From: Petrachloros mirabilis ULC683
GTDB taxonomy: Bacteria; Cyanobacteriota; Cyanobacteriia; Thermosynechococcales; Thermosynechococcaceae
Length of the DNA: 53,233 nt
Assembly (NCBI RefSeq): GCF_009939295.1
Contig: NZ_WVIC01000031.1
Span: 1-53,233 of the forward strand
Direction of reading: 5' to 3'
The notes beneath the pieces are model-generated. The model was given only the letters and a program-made list of their open reading frames with translations. It was not told the origin of the DNA and searched no databases. Both the position numbers and the translations under genes were made by a program. Shown here piece by piece: positions 19,832-50,991 of the stretch; position 1 is the stretch's first letter; each line of letters begins with the position of its first letter.

Positions 19832-20087
19832 CCTATCCCAAGCCAAGCCACAGCCAGTGATAGGGATTGAGATCTGCCCTATGCACTCCCCAAAGGTTAA
19901 AGGATTTGGAGGAATTTCCAAAGCGGGGCTTATCTACGCTAGAACGGAATTAACCAAAGGAAAATCAGTTTAGATACAGGCACCCTTGTGGTGTTTCCAA
20001 TCTCTGTCTCCAAACTGTTCCCAATAGCTTCAGGTCTGCGCCCCATCCTTGTGGCAGCGGGTCAATGACCGCCTAAGGAAAAGCATC

Positions 20088-22370
20088 ATGTCTAGTTCGG
20101 CGGTGACGACCCTGGTTCGTCCCTTGTCTATTTCTACTTTTGAGACGCTGCGATCGCTCCTCGCCCAGACTGCTCAAGATCTGCCCCGAGCCTCAGTTCA
20201 TCTCACTGAGACTGATTTGCCTGTGCGACCCCCTTCGCCCCTGGTGTTTACGGTTGTGGTCTCAAAGCGATTTAGCGCTCTGTTGCACGGCACTTCAGAT
20301 GGGGTAAACCCAACCCTTCAGGCTACATTGACCTTTGAGCTACAACACATTCATGACTTCTTAGATAGCTTAGCGGCACAGTATCCAGAGAGTCCTAAAT
20401 TGGATCAAGCCTTGGGGGCGATGGGGAATCGTGCCAATGACACCCATCTACAAAGCCAAATCACCCTGCGCTTAGTGGAGTTGCTGGCTACCCCCTCAGA
20501 TGTCCCTGAAGCGTTACCCACCCCCGCTTCCTGTCAACCCATGGTGGATGCGGCTCTCCATGAGCAAATTGCCCAAGAGCACTTGCTCAATCAAGTCACT
20601 ACTCAAATCCGTCAGAGTCTCGATCTGTCCCTGATTTTAAACACCGCAATTGAGCAGGCCAGGATCTTTCTAGAAGTAGATCGGGTGGTGATTTACCAGT
20701 TATTGGATACACCTGCGGAAACTGATCTCGACGCCCATGACACCCAGGTGATGGGGAGTGTGACCTATGAATCTTTGACATCACCGGATTTGCCCTCAAG
20801 CCTGCACTACCAAGAGCAACGGTGTTGGCAGCAGAATCACCCCTGTTTGCAAAAATATCTCCAAGGAAAACCCCTCGCAATTGCTGACATTGAGCAGGGG
20901 GGGGTTCACTCCCAATGCCTGTTCAATTTTCTTAAGGCAATGCAGGTTCGGGCTCAGTTGATCATGCCGATTTTGGTACAGTCTCGGTTGTGGGGGTTTT
21001 TAATTGCCCACCAGTGCGCCATTCCCCGCACCTGGCAAGACCGCGAACAACACTTGATGGAACATATTGCGGAGCATCTGGCCATTGCCATTTATCAGTC
21101 TCAACTCTATCAGCAGCTTCAGCAGCAAAAGCAAACCTTAGAAGATCAGGTAATGCAACGCACTCAAGAGCTTCAATCGGCACTCCTGGTCACTCAGTCT
21201 GCTCATCGAGCCAAGAGTGATTTTTTGGCCACCATGAGTCACGAGTTAAAAACCCCACTGACCTGTGTCATTGGTATGTCCGCCACGCTGCTGCGCTGGT
21301 CTCTAGGCCCCTTGACCGAAAAGCAACGCAGCTACCTGCAAACCATTCATGACAGTGGTGAGCACTTGCTAGAGTTGATCAACGACATTCTAGAGTTTTC
21401 CCATGCCGAGGCTGGCAAGGCGACTCTAAACCTGGTAGAGTTTTCGATTTTGTCACTGGCTAAACAATGTCTACAAATGCTTCGCGACAAGGCGCTGGCC
21501 AATCAAATTACCCTCAAAACCAGTTTTGATATTCCAGCGCAGCGCGATCGCTTTCTGGCTGATCCTCGGCGAGTCAAGCAGATTTTGTTAAATCTGCTCA
21601 GCAATGCGGTTAAATTTACCCCCCCAGGCGGTCAAGTCACCTTACGCCTTTGGATGGAATCTCACACAGTGGTATTCCAGGTAGAAGATACTGGCATTGG
21701 CATCTCTACCAGTCAGCAGTCACTCCTGTTTCAGCGGTTCCAACAATTGGATAGCTCTTACCGCCGCAATTATGAAGGTACCGGGCTAGGCTTAGCTTTA
21801 ACCAAACAATTGGTTGAGTTGCACCAGGGCTGGATTGAGGTCACGTCTGAAGAGGGCAAAGGATCAATCTTTACTGTCAAGATTCCCCATCAAGCTCGCT
21901 CCGAGGTGGCACCATCCTCGCTGCCGGTCTTAGCTTCTACCGGCACCTTGCAGTCTGCGGGACGAATTATGTTGGTTGAAGATGAAGAGGAGTCTGCAAG
22001 CATGGTGTGCGACATGCTAACGGCTGCTGGGTATCATGTGGTTTGGTTAGTGGATGGGGCAGCGGCTCTAGAGCAAATCCGTTTTGTGCAGCCGATTGCC
22101 ATGATTGTCAACCTGGAGACACCTCACATCGCCCAACTCAATCTTGTGCAACGGGTTCGCTCCCAAACGGAAAGGCGACCGATTAAGATCTTGGCATTTG
22201 CAGGTGTCGTTGTAGAGTCTGAAGACTGTGCGTTGATGGACTGGGGGGCTGATGCGATCTTGCCAAAACCGGTTCGTCCTGAGGACTTGATCTATACGAT
22301 TGAAGCGCTTTTGGGCAACAGAGCCCGTAAGCCTCTCGAAGCAGATTCTCTCGGGACTCTGGAAAGATAA
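20088..22370 (+). CDS. cikA: CikA-type circadian input histidine kinase with pseudo-receiver
   Basis: CikA resets the Kai clock and, as a phosphatase, acts on RpaA; its pseudo-receiver binds quinones and KaiB. From ATG 20088 (AAGGAAAA upstream) the protein has 760 residues, close to the S. elongatus protein (754). Order: N-terminal region 1-160, GAF about 165-340, HisKA with His385 in SHELKTP, HATPase (N-box NLLSNAVKF, DTGIGIS, GTGLGLAL), and a C-terminal receiver from about 626 in which the phospho-acceptor is Asn675 (MIVNLET). Cys277 (HSQCLFNFL) sits where bilin-binding GAF domains carry the chromophore Cys, though without the usual following His. The Kai genes are not in this window. Confidence 0.88.
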   Translation: MSSSAVTTLVRPLSISTFETLRSLLAQTAQDLPRASVHLTETDLPVRPPSPLVFTVVVSKRFSALLHGTSDGVNPTLQATLTFELQHIHDFLDSLAAQYPESPKLDQALGAMGNRANDTHLQSQITLRLVELLATPSDVPEALPTPASCQPMVDAALHEQIAQEHLLNQVTTQIRQSLDLSLILNTAIEQARIFLEVDRVVIYQLLDTPAETDLDAHDTQVMGSVTYESLTSPDLPSSLHYQEQRCWQQNHPCLQKYLQGKPLAIADIEQGGVHSQCLFNFLKAMQVRAQLIMPILVQSRLWGFLIAHQCAIPRTWQDREQHLMEHIAEHLAIAIYQSQLYQQLQQQKQTLEDQVMQRTQELQSALLVTQSAHRAKSDFLATMSHELKTPLTCVIGMSATLLRWSLGPLTEKQRSYLQTIHDSGEHLLELINDILEFSHAEAGKATLNLVEFSILSLAKQCLQMLRDKALANQITLKTSFDIPAQRDRFLADPRRVKQILLNLLSNAVKFTPPGGQVTLRLWMESHTVVFQVEDTGIGISTSQQSLLFQRFQQLDSSYRRNYEGTGLGLALTKQLVELHQGWIEVTSEEGKGSIFTVKIPHQARSEVAPSSLPVLASTGTLQSAGRIMLVEDEEESASMVCDMLTAAGYHVVWLVDGAAALEQIRFVQPIAMIVNLETPHIAQLNLVQRVRSQTERRPIKILAFAGVVVESEDCALMDWGADAILPKPVRPEDLIYTIEALLGNRARKPLEADSLGTLER

Positions 22371-45953: not shown

Positions 45954-46089
45954 GACAGCTTCGCAAATCGTCACAACGAGTCAACTTGATGCCACTGCTC
46001 CAGAGTTCATGTATGAGCTAGGGCGGCTCCAGATTCCTGTCATCAACCTAGATGACGACCCAATCGCAGACGAACTTCGCGATGACTAA
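45954..46089 (+). pseudogene. Antitoxin C-terminal remnant
   Basis: The frame just after an in-frame stop gives QLDATAPEFMYELGRLQIPV followed by INLDDDPIADELRDD, ending at 46089 and overlapping the next start codon by a few bases. The acidic tail and its position fit the 3' end of an antitoxin gene (for example UPF0175 type) preceding a DUF3368 toxin. No N-terminal part remains. Confidence 0.4.
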
Positions 46090-46363
46090 TGCCGCCATCA
46101 TCGCCGACAGCAGCCCACTTATCTCCCTTGCCATCATTGAGCAGCTTGAACTGCTGTCGCAGCTCTATCAACGGATACTCATTCCTCCAGCCGTTTGGGA
46201 TGAAGTTACCATTCAGGGCGCAGGATTACCTGGCTCACTAGCCGTGAGTCAAGCTGCTTGGCTAGAAGTTCAAATAATTTCAGCTCCTACACACAAATCC
46301 TTGACATCACGTACACCTTTCTCTAGTGACCTCTCTATACTGAAGATGGCTTGGCCTTATTGA
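46082..46363 (+). pseudogene. DUF3368 PIN-like toxin, truncated
   Basis: From ATG 46082 the frame gives 93 residues. The first 64 match DUF3368/PIN-type proteins: IIADSSPLISLAIIEQLELL, then ILIPPAVWDEVTIQGAGLPG, with the first catalytic Asp in ADSSPL. The family is normally about 155 residues and has further acidic residues in a C-terminal DPGEAEA-like segment. Here the sequence departs after AWLEVQ (IISAPTHKSLTSRTPFSSDL) and stops, so the active site is incomplete. It belongs with the antitoxin remnant directly upstream. The locus is probably dead. Confidence 0.7.
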
Positions 46364-46477: not shown

Positions 46478-49045
46478 TTGCCTGTGTCTTCTGAACACAC
46501 AACCCTCGCTGATTTTGTGCAAAAAACCTGGACGTTGGCAGCAACGACCTCTTTGGCAGAAACTCTTCAGATTGTACAGCAATGGCAGATCCACACCCCA
46601 GATGCTCCTTCAACCGATCGCGTCGTGGTGGTAGATGCCCAGCAAAAAGCCTTCGGATTGCTCTCGATAGCACAACTCCTAGCAAAAGTCTGCCTCGCAG
46701 ATCGGCAGACTCATCACCAAGAGCCGATTCAGATCCTGGCACAGGGGCTTCTACACCCCATCTGGCCACTGTCAGTCAATCTCACCCCCTTAGAGGTTTG
46801 GCACCAGTGGCAAGTGCTACCAGATGTGACTGAGCTGACCTGGGGTGTCATCCATCCGGATTCGGAAGAATTTTTGGGGCTCCTAGATCTTTCCCGCCTA
46901 CAGCAGTCCTTTACAGCAGTAGAACTGGGTTATCCAGCCACTAACTCCCATCAAATTGCTACCTGGACGCCGCAAGTGTTGAACGCACTAGTGGGCTTGT
47001 TTGAACAGTTGCCCACACCACTCTTGCTCCAGACAACCCGTGGCGAAGTAATTACCCGCAACTTGGCCTGGCGACAGCAGGTAGACCCGATGATCTCACC
47101 CAGCCAGATTGCCCAGACCAATCCCCAGACCTTCTCTCCTGCCTCTCCCCACTTTTGGGGACGCTGCCACCGGGGCGACCTGCCCAACTCACTGGTCTGT
47201 ACTTACTCCCTTCAGGATGGCCAGGAGCAAATTTGGCAATTTCACAAGGTGCCCGTGGCCCTGCTAAACCCCACAGAAACAAGCCATTCCCCCCGCCAGC
47301 TCGAAGATGGATCCATTTCAGAGATCTCCTCTGTTGCCCCTGAATCAACTGAACTCTGGATCACCCAGGCTCAAGATGTGACCGATACTCACCACTTAGT
47401 CCCAGAATTAGAAGCCAAAAATGCAGATTTAATGCTGCTCAATTCTCTCAATGAAGATTTTTTGGCGGAGTTGAGCCACGATATCAAAACCCCCTTAACT
47501 GCTCTAGTAGGTCTGTCTAACGTTCTGCAAGAAAAACGACTGGGAACCCTGAGCCAACGGCAAACCAAGTACCTTCAGCTCATCTATCAGAAAAGTCAGC
47601 AGTTGTTGCTCATTATGAATGACTTGCTTGATCTCACCCAAATTCGCACTCAACGACTGATGCTGCACCCCGAAACAGTGGAGATCGAGTCCCTGTGCCA
47701 AGACGCGATTACCCAGGCACTCCGACGACACTCTCTGGAACAAGGCACTCCCCATCCCCCTGATTTAGTGATTCCGGTCAACATTGACCCTGAACTCACC
47801 GATGTCGTAGCTGACCCATCTCGGCTACGGCAGAGCCTTGTGCTGTTACTCTGTCAGTCACTCGGACTGATCACAGCGTCTGATCAGATAGGGCTACAGG
47901 TGAAGAACTGGGGTCGATGGGTTGCCTGGACGGTTTGGGACACGGGTATGGGGATTCCCAGTGCCCAACAGCATCTCATCTTTCAAACTCCAGTTGTTTT
48001 TGAGGCATCTCCCACCAAGCTCTACCAAACCCGTCTAGGCTTTATCTTGGCACGGCGTTTAGCCCAACTCCAAGGGGGAGATGTCACCTTTTTGTCCACC
48101 CCCCAGCAACCTAACCACATGACTTTGCTGCTGCCAGCAAAACTGCCCCAGGCCATAAGTCAAAATGCTGATCCTGGCAACGCTTGCCTGGTCTTGGTGA
48201 TTGCCGCGATGCCTGCGCTGATTACCGAACTCCATCAGATTTTGGGGGAACTGGATGCCCAGTTGGTGGTGGCTCGTTCTGGCCCTGAAGCTCTGGAAAA
48301 AAGCCGTCAACTCCTACCTCAGCTGATCTTTCTGCACTTGCCCCTCCCCTATATCTCTGGTTGGGATGTTCTGACCTTACTGAAGCGAGATACGATCACT
48401 CGCTCTATTCCGGTGGTGATCATAGGGGATGTGCCCGATTTCCAACGGACTCGGCTTGAGATTAGTGAATCTCTGAGCCTGCCGTTGCAACCAGAAGCGG
48501 TGCAAGGGAGTTTACGGCGCTTAGGGTTGATCACGACGGCTGCCTCAGAATCTGCTCAACACCCTTCAGCTTCAGTGTCAGAAATGGCTGGGACAAAGGG
48601 ACTGGAGAGTACTCTTGATCCTGAGAGCGCTATGACCATTCTGCACTTGGAAGACTTGACCTCACCGCAGGATCAAAGTGCATGGCATCATGAAGCCCAG
48701 GTTAGTCATTATCTGCACCGTCAGGGCTGTCGGGTGATTGCGGCTACTGATATTGAGCAGGCAGAACTCCTGGCAACCATCTGGCGACCCCAGGTGGTTT
48801 TATACACCAGTCCCCATCCCCAACTGATTGCGACCCTAGAGCGTCATTCTCCCTTAAGTCAGCTTCCTTTTGTGGTACTTCATACTGAGGTAATACAACA
48901 ACTTGATCCTAGTTTGCGGCTCAATGTGTTCTTGGTACCGCTGGCAGAAGGATGGGAACATGCCTCAACAAGGGCTAGCGCTAACCTATTGTTGGAAACC
49001 GTGAAGGCTGCTGCCGATTTGCTGACGCTGCAGTCACAGGAGTAA
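46478..49045 (+). CDS. Sensor-kinase-like protein with CBS pair, degenerate ATPase and two pseudo-receivers
   Basis: The frame gives 855 residues from a TTG at 46478 (GTG 46484 is an alternative; no ATG is available). Order: a CBS-like pair (about 8-150; VVVVDAQQKAFGLLSIAQLL), a PAS-like region (about 165-310), HisKA with His334 (ELSHDIKTPLTAL), then an HATPase-like domain. In the latter the N-box reads SLVLLLCQSLGLI, lacking the usual Asn; DTGMGIP remains; the G2 box reads QTRLGFILA instead of GTGLGLA. Two receiver-like domains follow: His620 stands at the phospho-acceptor (LIFLHLPLP) in the first, and Thr (VVLYTSPHP) in the second. Probably a regulatory pseudokinase or a phosphate-independent scaffold. 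Confidence 0.8.
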   Translation: MPVSSEHTTLADFVQKTWTLAATTSLAETLQIVQQWQIHTPDAPSTDRVVVVDAQQKAFGLLSIAQLLAKVCLADRQTHHQEPIQILAQGLLHPIWPLSVNLTPLEVWHQWQVLPDVTELTWGVIHPDSEEFLGLLDLSRLQQSFTAVELGYPATNSHQIATWTPQVLNALVGLFEQLPTPLLLQTTRGEVITRNLAWRQQVDPMISPSQIAQTNPQTFSPASPHFWGRCHRGDLPNSLVCTYSLQDGQEQIWQFHKVPVALLNPTETSHSPRQLEDGSISEISSVAPESTELWITQAQDVTDTHHLVPELEAKNADLMLLNSLNEDFLAELSHDIKTPLTALVGLSNVLQEKRLGTLSQRQTKYLQLIYQKSQQLLLIMNDLLDLTQIRTQRLMLHPETVEIESLCQDAITQALRRHSLEQGTPHPPDLVIPVNIDPELTDVVADPSRLRQSLVLLLCQSLGLITASDQIGLQVKNWGRWVAWTVWDTGMGIPSAQQHLIFQTPVVFEASPTKLYQTRLGFILARRLAQLQGGDVTFLSTPQQPNHMTLLLPAKLPQAISQNADPGNACLVLVIAAMPALITELHQILGELDAQLVVARSGPEALEKSRQLLPQLIFLHLPLPYISGWDVLTLLKRDTITRSIPVVIIGDVPDFQRTRLEISESLSLPLQPEAVQGSLRRLGLITTAASESAQHPSASVSEMAGTKGLESTLDPESAMTILHLEDLTSPQDQSAWHHEAQVSHYLHRQGCRVIAATDIEQAELLATIWRPQVVLYTSPHPQLIATLERHSPLSQLPFVVLHTEVIQQLDPSLRLNVFLVPLAEGWEHASTRASANLLLETVKAAADLLTLQSQE

Positions 49046-49923: not shown

Positions 49924-50140
49924 ATGACCAACGTAGCCTATCTTGAGTACCCCACAGGCATGTCTGGCAATATGTGTCTGGCAGAAGTACTGCTTGATGT
50001 GGGGGTGCCCTTGGCCCATCTCCAAGCTCAGTTGGCGCGCCTGAAGCTGGTTAAAGTCTATGACTAGAGCCGGTGCATTTTGATGGCGCGGACGATGCCA
50101 TTGTCGATATTGTGTGCACCTGCTTGGGTCTGGACTGGTT
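49924..50140 (+). pseudogene. Decayed duplicate fragment of larC
   Basis: Bases 49924-50067 encode 47 residues (MTNVAYLEYPTGMSGNMCLA, then DVGVPLAHLQAQLARLKLVK) almost the same as the start of the intact larC at 51170, then a TAG. From 50068 to 50140 the DNA resumes similarity with the larC region for VHFHEVGATDAIIDIVGTCL (GCATTTTGATGGCGCGGACG), so about 65 codons are deleted. The match begins a few bases upstream of the ATG (ACTTCT). It is a partial, broken copy, separated from intact larC by the MntA/HepT genes and a MITE. Confidence 0.85.
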
Positions 50141-50173
50141 ACTATAGAGGCAACAGCAGTCAAACATGTTCTC

Positions 50174-50524
50174 ATGTCCTTCAATACCGATATCCTCGAT
50201 GCTGCATTAGGCCGTCGTCGCCAGGAGCATGAGCAGCAGCGACTGATGGCTCTAGAGGGGACAATTCAATGGCTAGAAACCCAAGGTGGCCAGTATGGGA
50301 TTAACCGAGCCTATCTCTTCGGCTCTGTCCTCTGGCCTTACCGATTTATCCCGCGATCGGATGTTGATGTGGCAGTGGAGCAAATAAAGCCAGAGTCATT
50401 CTTTGTTGCCTTGGCTGCCCTATCGGAGGCATTAGAACGAGACATAGACTTGGTGGAACTGTCTAGATGTCATTTTGCTGATCGCATTCGCCAGCAGGGG
50501 ATGCTATGGAAACGCAAAATCTAG
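50174..50524 (+). CDS. mntA: MntA-type nucleotidyltransferase antitoxin
   Basis: MntA-type antitoxins (minimal nucleotidyltransferases) inactivate HepT toxins by adenylylating them near the active site. From ATG 50174 the protein has 116 residues: MSFNTDILDAALGRRRQEHE, then YLFGSVLWPYRFIPRSDVDVAVE, the GSx10DxD nucleotidyltransferase motif, with a further acidic residue in ERDIDLVEL. The frame is open to 50114 but that part lies inside the larC fragment. The stop lies 19 nt inside the HepT gene, the usual order and overlap. Confidence 0.88.
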   Translation: MSFNTDILDAALGRRRQEHEQQRLMALEGTIQWLETQGGQYGINRAYLFGSVLWPYRFIPRSDVDVAVEQIKPESFFVALAALSEALERDIDLVELSRCHFADRIRQQGMLWKRKI

Positions 50525-50991
50525 CTGTTTTTCAGGCAGATATTGCCGCTCAATGTCAGGCTATTGAGGGCGTTTTTGTCAGCTTGGAGCAGCGAGCCGT
50601 AGGACTGACACCAGAGAGTCCAGAGAAGCTGGAAAGTGTCGCCTACCAACTGCATAATTTTTACAGCGCCATCGAAGATTTGTTCAGAATTATTGCTAAT
50701 TTTTTTGAAAACAATGTTTCAGAGACTGCTCGTTGGCATAGTTTGTTGCTCCAGCGCATGACTCAACCTGTGCAAGGCATTCGACCGGCAGTGATCACCG
50801 CAGAGAGCTATGCGCTGCTGAATGCTCTCAGAGGATTTCGGCACTTTTTCCGCCATGCTTATGGAGTTTCTATTGAGTTTGCTCAGCTTCAAAGTAATTT
50901 ACAAAAAGCTCGACAGTTGAAGCCAATGGTTGATAAAGACATCCAAGCTTTTTTGCAAGCTTTGTCTTCTGATAGTGCAGGAAATACGTGA
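50506..50991 (+). CDS. hepT: HepT-type HEPN ribonuclease toxin
   Basis: HepT is a HEPN-domain RNase toxin partnered by MntA. The 161 helical residues contain the family motif R-x4-H-x-Y as Arg112, His117 and Tyr119 (RGFRHFFRHAYGV), with YQLHNFYSAIEDLFRIIANF in the first half. Tyr119 would be the residue near which the antitoxin places AMP. The gene overlaps mntA by 19 nt and starts METQNLAVFQ. It is intact. Just downstream is a family A MITE. Confidence 0.88.
   Translation: METQNLAVFQADIAAQCQAIEGVFVSLEQRAVGLTPESPEKLESVAYQLHNFYSAIEDLFRIIANFFENNVSETARWHSLLLQRMTQPVQGIRPAVITAESYALLNALRGFRHFFRHAYGVSIEFAQLQSNLQKARQLKPMVDKDIQAFLQALSSDSAGNT

Follow-up and report, generated by a model that had tools for sequence, protein, structure and literature searches.

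Among described systems, the nearest to the locus reported here is CikA, a cyanobacterial hybrid kinase tied to the Kai clock and composed of a GAF domain, a HisKA and HATPase core and, at its end, one pseudo-receiver. Other kinases have been repurposed for regulation, such as DivL, where Tyr replaces His, and RetS, which acts by binding GacS. The pseudo-receiver of CikA restrains the kinase; like that of KaiA it binds quinones, and it also binds KaiB, which it meets through its alpha1-beta2-alpha2 face, and CikA itself is a phosphatase on RpaA (PMC12632262, PMC13421787). A regulatory pseudo-receiver is also found in the hybrid kinase ShkA of Caulobacter, and a 2025 review describes the way in which pseudo-receivers and pseudokinases signal as a "mystery" (PMC12632262).

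Here we describe a family of cyanobacterial signalling proteins, apparently unstudied so far, which resembles CikA in its HisKA and HATPase core, in its terminal pseudo-receiver and in its tie to the kai genes, but differs from it in having a CBS-like N-terminus, two pseudo-receivers and a gene that lies beside kaiA. A protein encoded in a stretch of 53,233 nucleotides from Petrachloros mirabilis ULC683 (the window) is, as judged from its domain layout and profile matches, a diverged member of this kai-adjacent CBS-like/HisKA/HATPase/pseudo-receiver 1/pseudo-receiver 2 family. Our preferred reading, to which we assign a probability of about 0.5, is that of a clock-neighbour family of hybrid kinases that parallels CikA in its logic and whose copy in the window has an eroded ATP site and would work through HisKA and its pseudo-receivers. 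The gene and its parts are as follows.

46478..49045 (+), whole open reading frame, 855 amino acids, TTG start, with full-length orthologues
46484 (+), alternative GTG start within that frame
46478..46927 (+), N-terminal CBS-pair-like region, residues 1-150, from Pfam CBS in orthologues and a low-confidence AF2 model
46970..47407 (+), putative PAS-like region, residues 165-310, from similarity seen by eye
47453..47650 (+), HisKA dimerisation and phospho-acceptor domain (Pfam 1e-15), with His334 in H-D-I-K-T at 47477-47479
47663..48145 (+), HATPase_c with degenerate ATP site, from Pfam and orthologue alignment
47855-47857 (+), Gln460 in place of the N-box Asn, orthologue alignment
47939-47959 (+), G1 box DTGMGIP, residues 488-494, kept, orthologue alignment
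48032-48034 (+), Arg519 in place of the first G2 Gly, orthologue alignment
48179..48547 (+), pseudo-receiver 1 (REC1), residues 568-690, from alignment and profile match to PleD/DivK receivers
48335-48337 (+), His620 in place of the REC1 phospho-Asp, orthologue alignment
48623..49021 (+), pseudo-receiver 2 (REC2), residues 716-848, from profile and modelled receiver fold
48731..48805 (+), well-kept beta2-alpha2-beta3 block of REC2, residues 752-776, consensus RVLEADDLEQAELLARVWxPDVV, per-block conservation
48806-48808 (+), Thr777 in place of the REC2 beta3 acceptor Asp, orthologue alignment

In the window protein Pfam recognises HisKA (residues 326-391, 1e-15), HATPase_c (466-554, 4e-8) and, slightly below its cut-off, Response_reg (572-650, 2e-6); REC2 falls below the sensitivity of Pfam, and no CBS domain is found by Pfam in the protein itself. 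The CBS label for the N-terminus is drawn from orthologues, 6 of 20 of which carry a Pfam CBS match (best 1e-6), and AF2 places alternating helix and strand there at low confidence. Over the PAS-like region the AF2 pLDDT is mostly below 70, and a GAF domain before HisKA was found by Pfam neither in the window protein nor in 19 orthologues. Against the family profile, built from 20 rows that include the window protein, the protein scores E 2e-276 across positions 2-806 of 820, from the CBS-like region through REC2; used alone as a query it also gave full-length matches to orthologues, and one scan of genome contigs with it as the single query returned no match. The best NCBIfam match, over HisKA-HATPase, is HrmK (NF038297), membership of which was rejected at 167.6 bits against an equivalog cut-off of 725. 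Most orthologues (L012, L013, L025, L038 and others) are 1000-1240 residues long, with additional sequence at the C-terminus that looks like a receiver by eye and is missing from the window protein.

Of 194 genomes of the class, about half have a full-length relative, as a rule one per genome. Clustering of neighbouring genes at 23 orthologue loci gave three conserved families, KaiB, KaiC and KaiA (F1, F2 and F3), whose genes follow one another beside the kinase gene in the order kaiA, kaiB, kaiC and are transcribed away from it. The Kai identities are confirmed by solved proteins, since the KaiC of the clock genome G058 is residue for residue the S. elongatus KaiC of the PDB and the KaiA encoded next to the Thermosynechococcus copy agrees with solved KaiA. 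A comparison of the places of the family with those of Pfam KaiA covered 95 genomes for which a kaiA place was listed; in 85 of them the orthologue is adjacent and divergent to kaiABC, every linked case being divergent, with a median gap of 886 bp between the matches; none of 41 next-nearest hybrid kinases lay beside kai. The divergent adjacency persists across many cyanobacterial families. The family is present in 105 of 172 kaiA-bearing genomes versus 1 of 22 that lack kaiA (Fisher p 2e-7, which overstates independence, the genomes being related; family membership was picked by hand from the match list). Viewed from the other side, kaiA is found in 105 of the 106 family-bearing and in 67 of the 88 family-free genomes, and the sole kaiA-lacking genome with the gene is a draft, 87% complete. 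One kai-linked orthologue (L029, G035:C23) is split across three reading frames, as a broken gene or through a sequencing fault.

Linkage is usual, not obligatory, and the window gene is therefore filed in the family by descent, not by locus. Ten genomes have the gene unlinked from kai, some of them with an intact ATP site. The Petrachloros genome carries kaiA-kaiB-kaiC on one contig (C46) and the kinase gene on another (C48); a glutamine amidotransferase gene occupies the divergent position beside its kaiABC, and it also encodes KaiB-domain proteins other than KaiB. The gene is likewise unlinked in the Acaryochloris-like sister clade. Within the window's own cyanobacterial family the gene has also been lost outright, since three good-quality genomes with kaiA (G001, G003 and G006) have no recognisable orthologue; the unlinking and the missing orthologues fit with dispensability. 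S. elongatus (G058) has kaiABC and no family member. In the open-access literature we found no description of a kinase beside kaiA. The kaiA gene of Anabaena PCC 7120 is alr2884 (PMC8064755), and from the locus numbering all2883 is probably the orthologue in that strain; the tag turned up nowhere except among tabulated predictions of CRP targets (PMC2633013).

The original prediction held that both receiver-like domains of the window protein lack the phospho-acceptor Asp, which the alignment bears out (His620 in REC1, Thr777 in REC2), the AF2 model adding a receiver fold for REC2. In REC1, which by profile matches the PleD/DivK receivers (E 1e-17 to 1e-15), the acidic pair is also replaced by Ala576/Ala577 and the conserved Lys is absent. 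The acceptor column of REC1 across 101 orthologues aligned with the window protein reads Asn in 62, Ser in 13, Arg in 10, Gln in 7 and Asp in 5, and REC1 is a pseudo-receiver across the whole family. Two unlinked orthologues with an intact ATP site (L010 and L011, in G030 and G055) depart from this pattern, with Asp620 retained in REC1. At the REC2 acceptor position 66 of the aligned orthologues have Asp; this domain too is mostly a pseudo-receiver, because only 12 of those 66 have any acidic residue at the metal-binding pair. The Thr777 of the window protein is common to the Acaryochloris-like sister clade. By its family profile REC2 resembles receivers (KdpE, E 1e-4), and REC2 modelled alone by AF2 (pLDDT 75; of five models one was good) gives a receiver fold which VIA-align places at Z 11-12 to PrrA, KdpE and DivK. 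Both domains of the window protein are pseudo-receivers, being receivers by sequence or fold with key catalytic residues absent. The pseudo-receivers of CikA and KaiA were not recovered in PDB profile searches with REC1 or REC2, nor are they among the rows shown by Foldseek and VIA-align for REC2; the profile searches lend no support to direct kinship with them, while leaving room for it.

The kinase core has had a different history. His occupies the His334 column in 100 of the 101 orthologues, the remaining one being a gap in a fragment, the acid at H+1 is nearly invariant and the E/D-x-x-T/N/S motif nearly universal; the window protein keeps both His334 and a D-x-x-T phosphatase-type motif. 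The N-box Asn is conserved in 85 and the G2 Gly in 87 of the 101, and the ATP site as a whole is intact in 71 of 102. The presence of His334 and DTGMGIP, the missing N-box Asn (Gln460) and the altered G2 box (Arg519) were all confirmed in this alignment, which contains no Asn or Asp at a shifted position that could make good the lost ones. The expectation that orthologues share the losses stands for REC1 and fails for the ATPase, where losses are repeated, differ in their substitutions and fall mostly in the window's own cyanobacterial family. That ATPase losses are common to orthologues is ruled out by the 71 intact sites and by L022, which lies in the window's sister clade and has all ATP-site motifs; that the losses are unique to the window copy is ruled out for REC1, whereas for the ATPase it is in its details largely correct. 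A maximum-likelihood tree, with several long branches and parts that are uncertain, recovers the Acaryochloris-like clade (7 rows, 100/98) as the sister of the window protein and requires at least seven changes for the loss of any ATP-site residue and at least four for loss of the Asn. The genus labels Acaryochloris-like (g11) and Thermosynechococcus (g6, also from its KaiA) are inferred ones. ATP-site loss shows no clear pattern with unlinking from kai: Thermosynechococcus is linked yet has lost Asn, Asp and Gly alike, and several unlinked copies are intact.

Those Thermosynechococcus copies have median dN/dS values of 0.02 in HisKA, 0.08 in REC1, 0.12 in REC2 and 0.18 in the ATPase, as against 0.04-0.09 for the ATPase in sets with an intact ATP site, indicating that selection maintains the degenerate form and is more relaxed on the ATPase than on the other domains. 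REC1 gives 0.03-0.18 across the ortholog sets measured; with the family-wide loss of its acceptor, this purifying selection marks the pseudo-receivers as a maintained feature, not local decay. By per-block conservation, the beta2-alpha2-beta3 block of REC2, with its invariant W769, is among the best kept in degenerate lineages.

The full AF2 model, from 28 rows, has a mean pLDDT of 69, with much of the ATPase and REC1 above 90; the N-terminal half (CBS-like and PAS-like) is poorly modelled because the rows comprise the window protein and related loci only. Foldseek against the PDB ranks ShkA best, then RetS, ZraS, HK853 and DivL. ShkA shares a regulatory pseudo-receiver with the window protein, but has a true receiver and an active kinase as well, whereas the window protein has no receiver Asp and a degenerate ATP site. 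DivL and RetS are likewise comparable as kinases turned to regulation, with the difference that the window protein, unlike DivL, keeps its His.

From these associations we infer a clock function, a partner and a mechanism for the family: its members, like CikA, would target either the clock itself or a regulator of clock output, for which RpaA is the obvious candidate; HisKA would serve as kinase or phosphatase, and the pseudo-receivers would offer sites for docking or for ligands and not accept phosphate. With the Asn and one G2 Gly gone, the window copy would autophosphorylate poorly, and probably no longer does so; most likely it retains ATP-independent functions only. The lost motif residues make it a candidate pseudo-histidine kinase, a class defined by the lack of ATP binding, autophosphorylation or phosphotransfer. 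It may act through the HisKA His and D-x-x-T, as a phosphatase, a trans-phosphorylated acceptor or a partner of another kinase, and also through its pseudo-receiver surfaces. This reading is supported by the kaiABC adjacency (85/95), the 0 of 41 next-nearest kinases, the co-occurrence with kaiA, REC1 Asp in 5/101, HisKA His in 100/101, the Thermosynechococcus dN/dS, the kept REC2 block, and ShkA, RetS and DivL among the structural neighbours. It is weakened by the failure of the REC1 and REC2 profiles to reach CikA or KaiA, by the unlinked gene in the window genome and sister clade and by the missing orthologues of G001, G003 and G006. The original prediction of a signalling scaffold that may couple CBS nucleotide sensing to protein binding, akin to the CikA pseudo-receiver, holds in part, in that pseudo-receivers are maintained and the family adjoins kaiABC, which gives the CikA comparison added weight; it falls short in that the ATPase losses are not general among orthologues.

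The window gene could instead be in decay, having left the kai locus and lost its function, with the ATP site eroding on the way to loss. Its unlinked position, the loss of the N-box Asn and G2 Gly on a long branch, the absence of the gene from G001, G003 and G006 and a HisKA with just 51% identity to the consensus of intact copies all point this way; however, the frame runs uninterrupted for 855 codons and shows a coding-type pattern of GC by codon position along its whole length, His334, D-x-x-T, the G1 box and the beta2-alpha2-beta3 block of REC2 have been retained, and purifying selection acts on the degenerate copies of Thermosynechococcus that are still linked to kai, so that we consider decay unlikely. 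Still less probable is that the window copy has stayed active as a kinase through an unusual ATP site, with Gln460 doing the work of Asn and T-x-L-G, which is left of G2, being enough. The G1 box is intact, HATPase_c scores 34.2 bits against a Pfam cut-off of 26.4 and AF2 gives the ATPase core high confidence, but fold confidence is uninformative on ATP binding, the N-box Asn and G2 Gly are conserved in most orthologues, and the lost Asn is the residue that coordinates ATP-bound Mg2+.

The link to kaiABC might, finally, have no functional meaning and stem from the sharing of an intergenic region or from long-standing neighbourhood, the protein regulating something else, for example via its CBS-like domain. 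The ten genomes with an unlinked gene, some with intact ATP sites, and the 67 kaiA-bearing genomes without the family speak for this; divergent adjacency across many families, next-nearest hybrid kinases that are never adjacent and a gene found in just one kaiA-lacking genome, the incomplete draft, make it very improbable. Returning to the reading of a clock-neighbour kinase family, we advance a broader proposal tentatively and at somewhat less than even odds: that a kai-adjacent hybrid kinase with non-phosphorylatable receivers is an overlooked clock component in about half of the class genomes sampled, missed because S. elongatus is without it, and that in the window's cyanobacterial family it has on more than one occasion become a regulator that works independently of ATP. 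If so, oscillator models based on S. elongatus would be missing a conserved clock input or output module. Thermosynechococcus, the source of much Kai structural work, carries the ATP-site-degenerate form beside kaiA, and the family, with intact and repeatedly degenerate ATP sites and near-constant pseudo-receivers, offers a natural series for the study of pseudo-receiver and pseudokinase signalling.

Other features of the window include a short frame just upstream of the kinase gene (46052-46363, +), by eye a truncated PIN-type (DUF3368-like) toxin preceded by antitoxin remains, for which Pfam gave no match. Downstream, at 50114-50991 (+), a nucleotidyltransferase-like frame (Polbeta, slightly below cut-off) overlaps a HepT-like_2 gene, a pair that we classify from its domains as a putative MNT/HepT-type toxin-antitoxin. 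A second hybrid kinase (20049-22370, +), of GAF-HisKA-HATPase-receiver layout, has all its domains above the Pfam cut-off, in contrast to the degenerate kinase.
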